From Mesostigma viride (lineage: Eukaryota; Streptophyta; Mesostigmatophyceae; Mesostigmatales; Mesostigmataceae), in the NCBI GenBank assembly GCA_009746045.1, contig RPFO01002255.1:1-64000 (forward strand): a stretch of 64,000 nt of DNA, read 5' to 3'. Below are positions 1,949 through 34,682 of this stretch, piece by piece. Made by a program: the position numbers and the translations under genes. A model generated the notes under the pieces. The model was not told the origin of the DNA. It was given only the letters and a program-made list of their open reading frames with translations, and did no database searches. Each line of letters starts with the position of its first letter. Position 1 is the first letter of the stretch.

Positions 1949-4900
1949 CTCAACTTCTTTGTCATCGGCGTCATCCCCGTGCTGGTCTCTGTGCTCACCT
2001 TTGCCGCCTACATCGCGTGCGGCGGCGAGCTCACCGCCACTAAGGCCTTTGTCTCGCTCTCCCTCTTCTCGGTGCTCCGCGCGCCGCTCTTCGTGCTTCC
2101 AAGCACCATCACCCAGGTACGAGCATGGCCACTGCGTATGGTGGTAGCTGATCTGCAGTCACGGTTTCTATGTGAGCAAGGATGGTGGAACGAGCGTGCC
2201 ATCGCTTGCTTCAGTGCGCACTTTCCCCCCCCCGTTGGCTGCGCCCCGATGTGAGGCCATTCCCTCCCTCCCACCACTTCCCCTATTCTCTCCCCTGGTC
2301 TGACCTCCTTGGCAACGTTCCGTACTTGCGGATGGCTCCCCTGGCATTTCTGTATTCATGGACATGGGCAGTATCCCCTCCCCCATCGCGCCCATGCCAT
2401 GGCTCACCCCCGGGTCATGTTGCTACCCTTGGACAGTGTCCCAACGTGACCCATCCCCCCACCTGCCCCAGCCGCCACCTTTCTGTGCCTCAATCTTCCT
2501 GGTCTCCTCCAATCGTGCTCACCCCTTCGACAATGCATCTGCTTGTGGTGTGTACGATTGTTCCAGCGCAGCGTCCCATGAGAAGTGTGGAATCCAAACC
2601 CCTCCAGAGGAGCGGGGGGGCCTCTGCAGCCTAGCATTCCCTCTCAGACAAGCCTGAGCTAACACCCAGCCCACCTCGATTGGGATTTTCCTGCCTGGTC
2701 CGCCCAACCTTTCTCACCCCGTCCCTCTTCCTACCCCGACCCTCCTCTGGCTGGTCCACCCGATCTTGCTCATGCCCTCTGTTTGCTTCCCCCCTCCCCC
2801 CCTTGTTCCCCCCAGATCACCCAGTCGCTCGTGTCCATCACGCGCATCCAGGAGGTGCTCTGCGCCAAGGAGCAGACCAGCGAGCGTAGCACGTCGCCTC
2901 CGCGCCTCGACACGGGTGCGCCCTCCATCGAGATATCGGCCGGCAACTTCTCCTGGGACCTGCAGGTACGGGGGGGGAGGCGGCTAGGCACCCTGCTGAC
3001 GCACGACATCTGCTGTTGGGCACATCCATGCCTGCCCTTGCTCCCCTTTGCAGGTTTACGGTTTTGATCTTAGGGTGTTGCCTTAGCTTGTTCTTGTTAG
3101 CTTTTTCCTGTTTTTAATAGCTGGTTTGGTCACCTTCGCCACGCCTCTTTTTAATGTCCTCGTAGCGCGCATCTCTGGCTCCCAGGTCTGCCATGCAGGG
3201 CATGTCTCTTGCGGCTCCTTAGGGCACGTAACCGGATTCGACGCATGCTAATAGTTGCAGCCCTACCTGGTTGCCTTGCTAATGTTCGCAGCCTTGTGCA
3301 CAGGTCTCGCTCCTTGGTTGCAGCATGCTGATCTTGTGCCCGCAACCTTGATCATGTGCCTCGCTCCTTGTGCCCGCAGGAGTACGTCCCCTACCTGCAG
3401 GACATCAACTTGCGGGTGCAGCGAGGGGAGCTCGTGGCCGTGGTGGGCGCCACCGGGCAGGGCAAGGTGAGACATTTCCTTCCAGTTGAGTATGAAATTA
3501 GAGTCAAAATTTGATGTGATGATTGATTTCCAGAGCTACAGTGGCATGCCGCAGGCCCAAGTGATAAATGATCTGAAAGCAAAAGGGAGTAATAACCGGT
3601 GGATCAGCAAGCACAATGTATTAACCACTTTGATCTACATACTTGAATGCTCTGTCCGGTACCCAAAACCTTGTGTAGCTTATTCCCACCTGTTGGCGCC
3701 CCCCCAGCCCTGCCCACACAGTGTACCTGGTACGCACGGTTCAAACCACAGCAGCAAGGATTTTAATGGCAGGCTTTAGACAGCCTTTCTTCATCAAGGG
3801 TGCATCAAGGGGATCATCAACCACTGCTCAGGTTGCTTGCAGCCATCCGTCCCATGCCCATGGCTCCCATTTGCCCGCCGCCCTTTCCGCTTCCGCTGGC
3901 ATCCCTCCTCCAGTCATCGCTAATCCAGGCCATCCTGGGGGAGATGCTCGAGGTTCGGTCCCTGGAGAACCCTGGCACGCTCGCCCCGGGCACGTCTGCG
4001 GTGACGGTGCGCGGAAAGGTGGCCTACGTCGCACAGTCCGCGTGGATCTTCAACGCGTCGGTGAGGGACAGCGCAATATGGTGCCATGGGACGTGGGTGA
4101 TGGTGCAGTGTCGCATGGGGTTGTCCTGGAGGAGTTGATAAGGTGCTGGATTTCTGACAGTGCTAGTTTACTGTACACAATTGATTTGTTTGTGGCTGCG
4201 TCTGGCCCTAGTCTCTGCTGCTCATGTCTGTGCGGCCTCTAGTCACTAGTCTCACCACCTGTTGAGAAAGACAGCTGTCCACACATCCTGCACCACGAGG
4301 ACGGTTGCATGTGGTTGCATATGTGGACTTTCTGCAATTTCGTTACAGTGATCTCTAACCCTGAACTTCTTCGTCCCCCCCGCCCCCCCCTCCTCCGCTC
4401 GCCCGCCCCCCGCCACCGCTTGCGTCGTGTCGCCACGTGTTGCCAGGTGCGTGACAACATCCTGTTCGGGCAGCCCTTCTACCGTGAGCGCTACCAGCGC
4501 GCGCTGGCGGTGAGCTGCCTGCTGGCGGACCTGGAGCACATGCCAGGTGGCGACGCGGCGGAGATCGGGGAGCGCGGCGTGAACCTGTCCGGAGGCCAGA
4601 AGCAGCGCATCTCCATCGCGCGCGCCGTGTACGCCGACGCAGACATCTACCTGTTTGACGGTGCGTGTTATGGGGACAAGAGTTTTTTATGGTGTGGTCA
4701 TGGGGACAAGAGTCTGTTTGATGGTGCGTGTGATGTGGGCATCTACCCGCTTGATGGTGCATGCAAGGGGGCGACTGTCTGTTGATGGGGTTTGATGTGG
4801 GCATCTACCCGCTTGATGGTGCATGCAAGGGGGCGACTGTCTGTTGATGGGGTTTGATGTGGGCATCTACCCGCTTGATGGTGCATGCAAGGGGGCGACT

Positions 4901-32360: not shown

Positions 32361-34682
32361 ATGGGGATACTAAGTGCGACGAAGCAGCTGCTGGCCCTAG
32401 TGCTGGCAGTATGCCTGATGAGTGCGATTTATTTGTACACCCATCGGAAGGCTCAGCTGGAGAAGGAGCGTTTGCTGTCGCATCATAGTTTTCAGGTGGG
32501 TCTGGTGACAAGTAGTGCCTTGCTGGCGCCCTTGCCGCGCATTTCTATACTCCCATGCCTGACGTGTGCTCACAGTCTGCTGGCAGGGAGTGTTTCGGTC
32601 GCTGTCTAGGTCGCCAGTGACGGGGCTTCGGCGTCCTACCTTGCTCCGACGTGTCCTAGTTTGATTTGTCTCCCGTCCCTTGCGTTGTCGGGCTCCTCTT
32701 ATTAGTTCAGGGCGGGGCTCAGCGAGTGGAGACGTGGCAGATGGCGCGCAAGATGCGCTATTTCTGCCTCGTTTCCAACTCCTAACTTCTTCGCCCCACC
32801 TTGCTGTGCATGGACATGCTAAATATATCCGTGCTGTTTTACCTCGTGAACCCTTTGCTGCCTGGTGTGGAATGTCGTGGATTGCCACCTGTCCCGTACC
32901 CCACACCAGATATCCATGCATCTAAGTCTCGAAGCCTAACGTTATCCTCGTGCCTTAACATGACTAGTGACCACTGACCAGTTTGAATCCATATAGGGCC
33001 AATTTGTGTGCCCTGGACTCCAATACCCATCAGGTGAAGCACACATGGACTCAGTTTACTTACCTGCTGTATCGCCTGCCACCCGGCATGCCATTGCCAG
33101 CAAGTCATCGCATGCCAACTGCCGGCTTCTAGCACATTTGCATAGCCCAAAACAAGACCCTCTGTCATTCCTCCTCCCCCGATCCTCTGTTGGGAAGACG
33201 TCAAGGCCAACACTATGCCACATGAGGTCATACCACCTGAGGGTCCATGTTGGGATGGGCTTGTTGAAAGATGAGAGTGTCTAGTATGGTGCCCAGTTTC
33301 CCACACCCCACCCCATGGTGCTGGCATCCGGGGCCTACGCTACCCCACCCCACCCCATACCCAATCATGTCCCCAAAGCATAAATGAGAGCGCCTTGTAC
33401 AGTATGGCGTTGTATGGCTCGGAAGCGCGACTGACGGCCCGCTCATCCAAGAATAGAGAACATGATGCACCCCAATCATGGGCCCACGCTCACGCGCTCT
33501 CTGTCATGGAATGTCACGGGTCCCTGCAGGTCAAGAAGCTGTCCCTCCACGTGGATGAGAAAGAGGAAGCGCTCAAGGAGGCCCATTTCTTGCTGGAGCG
33601 AAAAGCCGACGAGCTGCGTGCGCTAGAGGACAACATCGAGATCCTCCGCAAGCAGATGGCTGAGCTGGCGGCCGACCACGCAGCAAACAGGGAGGCGATG
33701 CACCACCGCGACGTGGCATTGCGGCTGAAAGAAGAAGCCGAGGAAGCCCACAAGGCGACGCTGACCTCGGTGGAGGTGTGCCGGATGGAAGCAGCGGTCG
33801 CGCTGGATGCGAAGGACAAGAAGATTGCGGAGCTGGCCGCCACGCTCAACCTGGCCAAACAGGTACTCTATGGGGGATGGGTGGGTAAAGTGATCACATG
33901 GCTCAGTGGATGCAAGAATGAAAAGCTTGTCGCCACGCTCAACCTGGCCAAAGAGGGACACTATGGGGGATGGGTGGGTATAGTGACCAGGTGGCTAGGT
34001 GAACGCAAAGAGCGAGAAGCTAGTCGCCACGCTCAACCTGGCCAACCAGGTACCACTGGTTGGTGGCGTTTTCTTCTCTACCTTTGCCAAAACAGGTGAG
34101 GCAGTCCTTTCATTATCGAAATCTTTCCTTACTTTTTGGGCCCCTTCCATTTCCCAAAGTTCCCAAACCCGTTCCCCGTTCCTGCCCCCCACTCCCGAGA
34201 ATATGGATTGGCTGCGTCGCCTTGCCATGGGATAAGTACGGCAAATGTGCAACACCATCCCTGCCTTACTTATCCCAACACACGTGCCTGCGCGTTGCCT
34301 TGTGTTTTGTCTAAAAATGGACCATCTGTGTCGTGACGTGGCGCTCCACGAGGGCCTAACATCCTTTACTGCTCCTTTTGGCTCTCTTTTTCTTCGCTCT
34401 TTTCATTCTCCTGGTCTGCGCCCCCCACAGAAAATGGACGAGCTGCGTCGCGACGCCGCGCTTCACGAGGGACTCGTCCGGGAGCGCGACGCGCAGCTAC
34501 AAAAGCACGCGCTGGACGTGCACCGCGCGCACCAGGCCGTCGCTGACAAGAACCTGGCGCTGGGCTACATGGCCACCAAGCTGCACGTGAGGGCGCACGG
34601 GGGGAGCGGGGGGGCAAAGGGCGCAGGGGGGGGAATCGTGCGCCGCCATGCGGCCCTGCTCAAGAAGAAGTTGAGGCGCTGA
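32361..34682 (+). CDS. Membrane-anchored coiled-coil protein, function unknown
   Basis: Three exons (32361-32495, 33530-33862, 34431-34682), GT-AG, all phase 0, giving 239 aa. Residues ~6-26 (ATKQLLALVLAVCLMSAIYL) form one hydrophobic helix followed by HRKAQLEKER, so it is predicted to be a single-pass N-terminally anchored protein. Residues ~46-215 are a charged Leu/Glu/Lys/Ala coiled coil (KLSLHVDEKEEALKEAHFLL, EDNIEILRKQMAELAADHAA, MDELRRDAALHEGLVRERDA). The tail is Gly-rich then basic (LLKKKLRR). I do not recognise a family; a tethering or scaffold role is only a guess. Both inner exon edges are echoed in their introns, and reading through a downstream copy would simply add NLAKE/NLANQ-like heptads. 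Confidence 0.72.
33912..34062 (+). repeat. Two echoes of coiled-coil gene exon 2 donor edge
   Basis: The true edge is GCCACGCTCAACCTGGCCAA ACAG|GTACTC at 33839-33868. Copies GTCGCCACGCTCAACCTGGC occur at about 33930 and 34022. The second keeps a CAG|GTACCA donor; the first has GAGGGACAC. TATGGGGGATGGGTGGGTA intron text is also copied, so the duplicated unit spans the junction and is about 90 bp long. Confidence 0.88.
34190..34356 (+). repeat. Echoes of coiled-coil gene exon 3 acceptor edge
   Basis: AAAATGGACCATCTGTGTCG then TGACGTGGCGCTCCACGAGG (about 34314-34353) mirrors the true exon 3 start AAAATGGACGAGCTGCGTCG and CGACGCCGCGCTTCACGAGG (34431). A weaker copy, ATATGGATTGGCTGCGTCGC, lies near 34200. 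The copies lie upstream in the intron, as expected for an acceptor edge. Confidence 0.8.

Follow-up and report, generated by a model that had tools for sequence, protein, structure and literature searches.

Exon-edge copies in introns of Mesostigma viride as probable products of local tandem duplication

The first 64,000 nucleotides of a 181-kb contig (RPFO01002255.1, here C832) from the 440-Mb genome of Mesostigma viride, referred to below as the window, contain three genes whose exon ends reappear in the introns beside them: an ABCC transporter, of which 11 exons were used, an aldo-keto reductase (AKR; Pfam Aldo_ket_red, E 9.8e-59) and a coiled-coil gene for which a Pfam search gave no family. 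An earlier note had described such echoes at eleven edges and attributed them to a genome-wide process. The locus thus raises the question of whether exon edges are a preferred source of copies, or whether they are caught up in a duplication process that affects introns as a whole. We consider the latter probable, at roughly two chances in three: local tandem duplication would be general in these introns, some events would span a junction, and the resulting copies would then decay neutrally beside an exon frozen by selection.

Echoed exon edges in the window and beyond

Exon models were drawn by eye and with a purpose-written hidden Markov model (HMM) gene finder. Because its training set was the by-eye exons, the gene finder is not fully independent of them; it recovers the same internal ABCC and AKR exons and also exons 2 and 3 of the coiled-coil gene, whose exon 1 was placed by eye only. 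All 29 introns listed are of the GT-AG type, the only type that the gene finder permits for the remaining genes. In the edge test, 50 bp of exon-only sequence from each edge was compared with its own adjacent intron, with short-period repeats masked, against a null of 400 equal-length stretches from non-adjacent introns, and p≤0.01 was taken as significant.

A significant own-intron copy was found at 10 of the 36 window edges (ABCC 3/20, AKR 5/12, coiled-coil 2/4). The exon-edge echoes are confirmed as real, and they extend more widely than had been claimed. Ten of the eleven edges described previously hold; the donor edge of AKR exon d alone fails (p=0.167), its match consisting of 10 exon and 43 intron bp at 72% identity. 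The statement that donor copies lie downstream and acceptor copies upstream also holds, but it is true by construction, because only the intron can receive a copy. The features are listed below, with the position first reported for each copy in brackets.

4447 to 4660, plus strand: ABCC exon E, which has the NBD1 signature and ends in ..DIYLFD, with an echoed donor edge (p=.002); by-eye model, gene finder, edge test.
4712 to 5810, plus strand: 62-bp minisatellite, 17.7 copies with 97% matches, which has grown out of the donor edge of exon E and can be aligned over 4644-5882; Tandem Repeats Finder (TRF), self-alignment (array at 4661-5990).
9699 to 9866, plus strand: ABCC exon I, both edges echoed; by-eye model, gene finder, edge test.
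9593 to 9613, plus strand: copy of exon I acceptor edge, present but short (21 bp, 86%), AG lost (9593).
9913 to 9971, plus strand: copy of exon I donor edge, 59 bp, 78%, GT now GC (9930).
28843 to 28941, minus strand: 3' part of AKR exon a, whose 5' end is not fixed, with an echoed donor edge; by-eye model, gene finder.
28662 to 28700, minus strand: copy of exon a donor edge, 39 bp, 95%, GTAGGG kept, within an octamer array (28667).
26882 to 27086, minus strand: AKR exon b, donor edge echoed; by-eye model, gene finder.
26760 to 26810, minus strand: copy of exon b donor edge, 51/51 bp identical, GTGA kept, intron side diverged (26750).
26040 to 26193, minus strand: AKR exon c, donor edge echoed twice; by-eye model, gene finder.
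25920 to 25961, minus strand: exon c donor-edge copy 1, GT kept (25918; both copies 81-82%, 43 bp).
25818 to 25861, minus strand: exon c donor-edge copy 2, GT kept (25817).
25140 to 25390, minus strand: claimed exon d donor-edge echoes, not significant alone; a true 41-bp intronic tandem pair lies at 25208-25287.
24635 to 24773, minus strand: AKR exon e, acceptor edge echoed; by-eye model, gene finder.
24835 to 24866, minus strand: copy of exon e acceptor edge, 32 bp, 91%, AG kept (24834); a weaker, less certain one at 25006-25058 (71%, 55 bp; 25030).
23772 to 23910, minus strand: AKR exon f, donor edge echoed; by-eye model, gene finder.
23539 to 23662, minus strand: two to three exon f donor-edge copies (23539-23560, 23628-23644, 23649-23662), one at 91% over 22 bp and weaker ones besides (23526-23670).
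33530 to 33862, plus strand: coiled-coil exon 2, with its 5' end placed by eye and two echoes of its donor edge; gene finder.
33914 to 34049, plus strand: two exon 2 donor-edge copies (33914-33955, 34008-34049; 83%, 42 bp) including intron part, a clear tandem of period ~93 (33912 and 34022).
34431 to 34682, plus strand: coiled-coil exon 3, acceptor edge echoed; gene finder.
34314 to 34357, plus strand: copy of exon 3 acceptor edge, 44 bp, 82%, AG lost (34314).

The octamer array (TATTCCCC-like, ~111 copies; window 27950-28841) starts at the AKR exon a donor, and the exon-edge copy is embedded in it.

Nine further genes or gene pieces were chosen irrespective of echoes: ABC genes on contigs C1402 and C1413 and twice on C2; adaptin, STI1-like and PsaE genes on C832; and UbiA and AOX-like genes on C2. 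These are gene-finder models with exon choice partly by eye. Pfam backs the AOX, UbiA, adaptin and STI1-like models, the two-exon PsaE prediction matches photosystem I subunit IV chains, which come mostly from green algae and plants, and the ABC and CCT genes (for the latter, see below) were found by homology searches or motifs. Together, the PsaE, AOX and UbiA genes indicate a photosynthetic eukaryote. Some predicted exons were excluded by eye from the edge counts: in the STI1-like prediction the initial one; in the C2 ABCC prediction the first, of 3 bp, and the final five; and in the UbiA, PsaE and C2b predictions the last four, two and four, respectively. Five LINE-like or low-complexity predictions were also set aside. 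PsaE (0/2 edges) and C2b (0/4 edges) were kept. The excluded STI1-like exon (C832:127499-127858) ends in YFSFD and the next one starts with YFSFD, so it is possibly an edge copy miscalled as an exon.

In these nine genes 28 of 92 edges are echoed, giving a total of 38 of 128 edges (22 donor, 16 acceptor), spread over four contigs and 10 of the 12 genes, with ~1.3 expected by chance at the threshold used. The echoed edges score 12.5-50 on their own introns, against null means of ~7-11 on other sampled introns. Two CCT genes, counted apart from the 128 edges, echo at a lower rate (CCT-theta 1/6, CCT-beta 1/10, together 2/16).

Introns as the control, and the anatomy of the copies

The control put forward with the original claim, a comparison of edges with internal exon segments, is passed: only 2 of 218 segments lying at least 50 bp inside an exon are echoed (1/75 of those starting 50 bp from the edge, 1/143 of the deeper ones). 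When edges were compared with the intron at the opposite end of their exon, 3/104 were echoed. However, this is not the decisive control. Unechoed exon interiors are to be expected if duplications in coding sequence are eliminated and if a short tandem unit does not reach far enough into the exon to bring its interior into the intron. The introns themselves provide a more direct one. Of 1034 intronic 50-mers, 372 are echoed within their own intron (each pair being scored on both members), with 302/792 in the middle of introns, 14/61 in the first tile and 15/60 in the last. Edges, at 38/128, are not echoed more than the intron sequence around them, and because intronic 50-mers are echoed at least as often, edges are not a hot class; it is the introns as a whole that are hot. 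Edge-specific enrichment, first suggested by the pairs in the window (about ten edge pairs against about four clear intron-only pairs), was dropped as the leading interpretation on this control. As regards the proposed genome-wide process, junction-spanning duplication is present on several contigs, enlarges introns and brings splice-site copies along with it, but a process directed at exon edges is unsupported.

The same comparison made with blocks of up to 735 bp gave echoes in 152/487 intronic cases (123/456 without one UbiA intron) and in 5/241 from exon interiors. Among intergenic 50-mers, 164/973 unique and 175/977 repeat-like ones are echoed, which places duplication echoes in introns ~1.6-1.8 fold above intergenic DNA. 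UbiA intron 1 (C2, minus strand, between the exons ending at 78873 and starting at 75613) consists almost wholly of local repeats, with 60 of its 65 intronic 50-mers echoed.

The 38 echoed edges have 55 copies, up to four per edge, at 71-100% identity (0-29% difference). The exon part of the best copies measures 19-59 bp. All 38 best copies reach the junction to within 9 bp, 27 of them exactly, as is required of a contiguous duplicated unit. Their distance from the junction is 75-135 bp in 11/16 acceptor and 5/22 donor cases. With both junctions anchored and gaps tolerated, the intron side matches at p≤.05 in 17/34 copies within 250 bp and in 15/38 best copies, and the anchored p values of the 34 copies depart from uniformity (Kolmogorov-Smirnov p=5e-13; AKR exon a counts through its octamer array). 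The intron side is thus often homologous but more diverged than the exon part, and a stricter local test finds it in 8/36. That the intron part was duplicated too holds for the copies as a group, not case by case; a clear tandem that takes in intron sequence is seen in the array at coiled-coil exon 2, at C1402 exon 1 and at a UbiA acceptor. The anchored test, together with the fact that every best copy extends to the junction or nearly so, led us to drop the copying of short segments without any intron part, which the 8/36 had suggested.

The CCT-theta gene is present on two contigs (C1641 and C887), and the two versions, 96.2% identical over 3 kb, give a view of recent change. Their predicted exons differ at four places, and the remaining differences lie in introns and flanks. 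Three of the six longer indels inspected (18, 7 and 4 bp) repeat or nearly repeat adjoining sequence, and in two of three difference clusters, judged by eye, a neighbouring motif has overwritten the old sequence. Short local duplication and templated replacement therefore look like current mutations in this genome, the observed events being shorter than the echoes. The donor echo of CCT-theta exon 3 is common to both versions. Judging from match positions, a later CCT-theta intron is ~3 kb longer on C1641. Elsewhere, C860:10001-20000 marks a duplicate contig: its 10 kb align to C2 without a mismatch and with 9 gap positions.

Competing explanations

In the explanation that we prefer, frequent short local tandem duplications, typically with a period of 40-220 bp, would remodel introns. 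Where the duplicated unit lies across an exon-intron junction, the original junction would stay in use, and a second exon end, splice site and some intron would be left in the intron. The copy would then decay neutrally while the exon is held by protein-level selection. The exon part and its copy would diverge at about the neutral rate. Between the two intron parts divergence would be about twice as fast and accompanied by many indels, which is why similarity seems to end near the junction; since the exon does not drift, junction-spanning copies would also be recognisable longest. Duplications within exons would presumably be purged, and the repair pathway may involve end filling or template switching at breaks. 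Of the independent pairs, 70 lie wholly in introns (in 58.1 kb), 35 span an edge and one touches an exon.

Several observations weigh against this explanation in its simplest form. Full tandems, in which the match covers 0.8 of the period or more, form a smaller share of the edge pairs (11/35) than of the intron-only pairs (38/70), and edge pairs have longer periods (median 121 against 66). We also simulated tandem duplication that strikes uniformly, with neutral drift beside an exon held frozen, in 14 uncapped runs and in 14 others that either capped the exon part at 60 bp or required an intron part of at least 50 bp. The ratio of echoed edges to echoed intronic 50-mers was 0.50-0.67 in the uncapped runs, and the observed value at score≥14 is 0.77-0.88 (edges 33/128; intronic 345/1034, or 285/969 without one UbiA intron), so edges are ~1.5 times commoner than predicted; the cap or minimum intron part lowers the predicted ratio to 0.27-0.45 and raises the edge excess to 2-3 fold. 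Moreover, the exon part exceeded 59 bp in 20-52% of copies in the uncapped runs, against 0/38 observed, and the local test that found the intron side in 8/36 real cases detected it in 67-82% of uncapped simulated ones. Lastly, the AKR exon b copy combines complete exon identity with a strongly diverged intron side, which a single event followed by drift would not give. This suggests that the exon now and then converts its copy, and edge copies would also last longer as a result; such conversion may form part of the mechanism.

Unit boundaries are therefore not uniform relative to the junction, as the absence of exon parts above 59 bp in the 38 best copies indicates; uniformity is expected of an unbiased process, although it does not strictly define one. 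The minimum exon size for recognition is usually put at ~50 nt. The limit on the exon part is real, and it may reflect either the purging of copies long enough to pass as exons or an avoidance of breaks inside exons. A mild edge component may thus exist beside the general duplication.

An edge-specific process would take this further: breaks or template switching at splice junctions, for instance through paused transcription or co-transcriptional splicing, would copy the first 20-60 bp of exon and the splice site into the intron. The exon limit that holds whatever the period, the echo excess over the simulations, the greater density of duplications in introns than in intergenic DNA and the shortage of full tandems among edge pairs all speak for it. 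We nevertheless find it unlikely, since 50-mers from the middle of introns are echoed at least as often as edges, the first and last intron tiles are not enriched, and at periods of 60-200 bp the median match length is 53 bp for 23 edge pairs and 54 bp for 30 intron-only pairs. A stronger form, a shade more doubtful still, would make edges the preferred source outright. A junction-tied process would copy up to ~60 bp of exon end with its splice site at ~30% of junctions, the exon acting as a permanent template that refreshes the copies by conversion, and the outcome would be a standing, self-renewing supply of decoy sites capped at a size below exon recognition.

The copies could also be kept because they function, as decoy or alternative splice sites, recursive-splicing points or alternative exons. 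The splice dinucleotide is retained in 33/50 copies (donor GT 16/24, acceptor AG 17/26), some with a full pyrimidine tract; several copies may stand in series, as do the four acceptor copies of the C1413 exon at 2234; and differences are in excess at third codon positions. However, retention in 12 simulated runs was 53-82% (53-73% in six runs that set no minimum for the intron part, 65-82% in the other six, which did), so that the observed value does not indicate conservation beyond neutral decay. In the best copy of each of the 38 edges the differences at the three codon positions are 53/412, 41/414 and 80/419, or ~1:1:1.7, and this fits a neutral copy, because an exon drifting only at synonymous sites predicts the same ratio. 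Coding constraint on the copies, suggested by 15 edges with all copies counted (27/256, 25/258, 66/260), weakened to this neutral-like 1.7 over 38 edges with one copy each. Only 2 of the 33 copies with intact GT or AG would extend the exon in frame and without a stop. The data show no maintenance of the copied splice sites, and we regard a functional explanation as improbable.

An assembly artefact, with two haplotypes or mis-joined reads placed end to end, is conceivable given that duplicate contigs exist (C860 and C2, and the two CCT-theta versions), but it is very improbable when copies differ from their exon by as much as 29%, number up to four per edge, occur in both CCT-theta versions and are spread over 38 of 128 edges on four contigs. 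Least credible of all is intron birth by tandem duplication of an exonic AGGT segment, with the echoes as remnants of the parent exon: it shares local duplication with splice sites as an ingredient (PMC4974935), but under it the upstream exon end should reappear where the new intron finishes, and we found 0/22 best donor and 0/16 best acceptor copies within 30 bp of the far end, in introns with a median length of 736 bp.

Some other features of the sequences are recorded here. A 228-bp direct repeat (95% identity, copies 353 bp apart) lies in intergenic DNA at window 45885-46465. Several related open reading frames (ORFs) occur at 14682-19302 and 54624-55913, which we take to resemble ORF1-type proteins of LINE elements, and reverse-transcriptase-like ORFs are located near 36 kb. 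The stretch C832:115001-120000 is exactly 5000 N, and another N stretch is present in L013.

Related systems and meaning for intron evolution

A literature search of titles and abstract openings, with subscription papers mostly outside its scope, found no description of genome-wide exon-edge copies in introns. The nearest case is the RdRp gene of potato, for which PMC4974935 describes a tandem duplication over an intron-exon boundary that produced a spliced new intron and an inserted exon; the same gene also holds a plain 83-bp intronic tandem duplication. As in potato, a junction-spanning unit in M. viride carries acceptor, pyrimidine tract and exon start; unlike in potato, the copies sit in existing introns and decay, and they do so at 38 of 128 edges. 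The Rogers/Lynch model of intron gain by AGGT duplication, as outlined in PMC4974935, likewise has a local duplication that brings splice sites, but its source is internal to an exon and its product a new intron, whereas the source here spans an existing junction. The algal echoes are related to intron gain by tandem duplication and are not an instance of it. End filling at double-strand breaks with complementary 3' overhangs makes short tandem duplications in human and mouse cells, according to PMC8355091, and is a candidate mechanism that, we infer, may act in this alga.

Two other classes of repeat invite comparison. The 62-bp array is an intronic minisatellite, but its unit includes an exon edge and a donor, and most other echoed edges have one to four copies. 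Introner elements are also repeats that carry splice sites within introns; here, with the other introns sampled as the null, each copy appears to match its own adjacent exon and not a dispersed element.

Because exons stay frozen while introns drift, local duplication can mimic edge specificity unless introns serve as the control. If ~30% of the junctions of a genome adjoin a decayed duplicate, introns can grow and turn over by ordinary local duplication, and each event would provide a ready splice site with exon context. The echoes of M. viride would then offer a countable system in which to follow the lengthening of introns, the tolerance or loss of decoy sites and the possible starts of new introns and exons.

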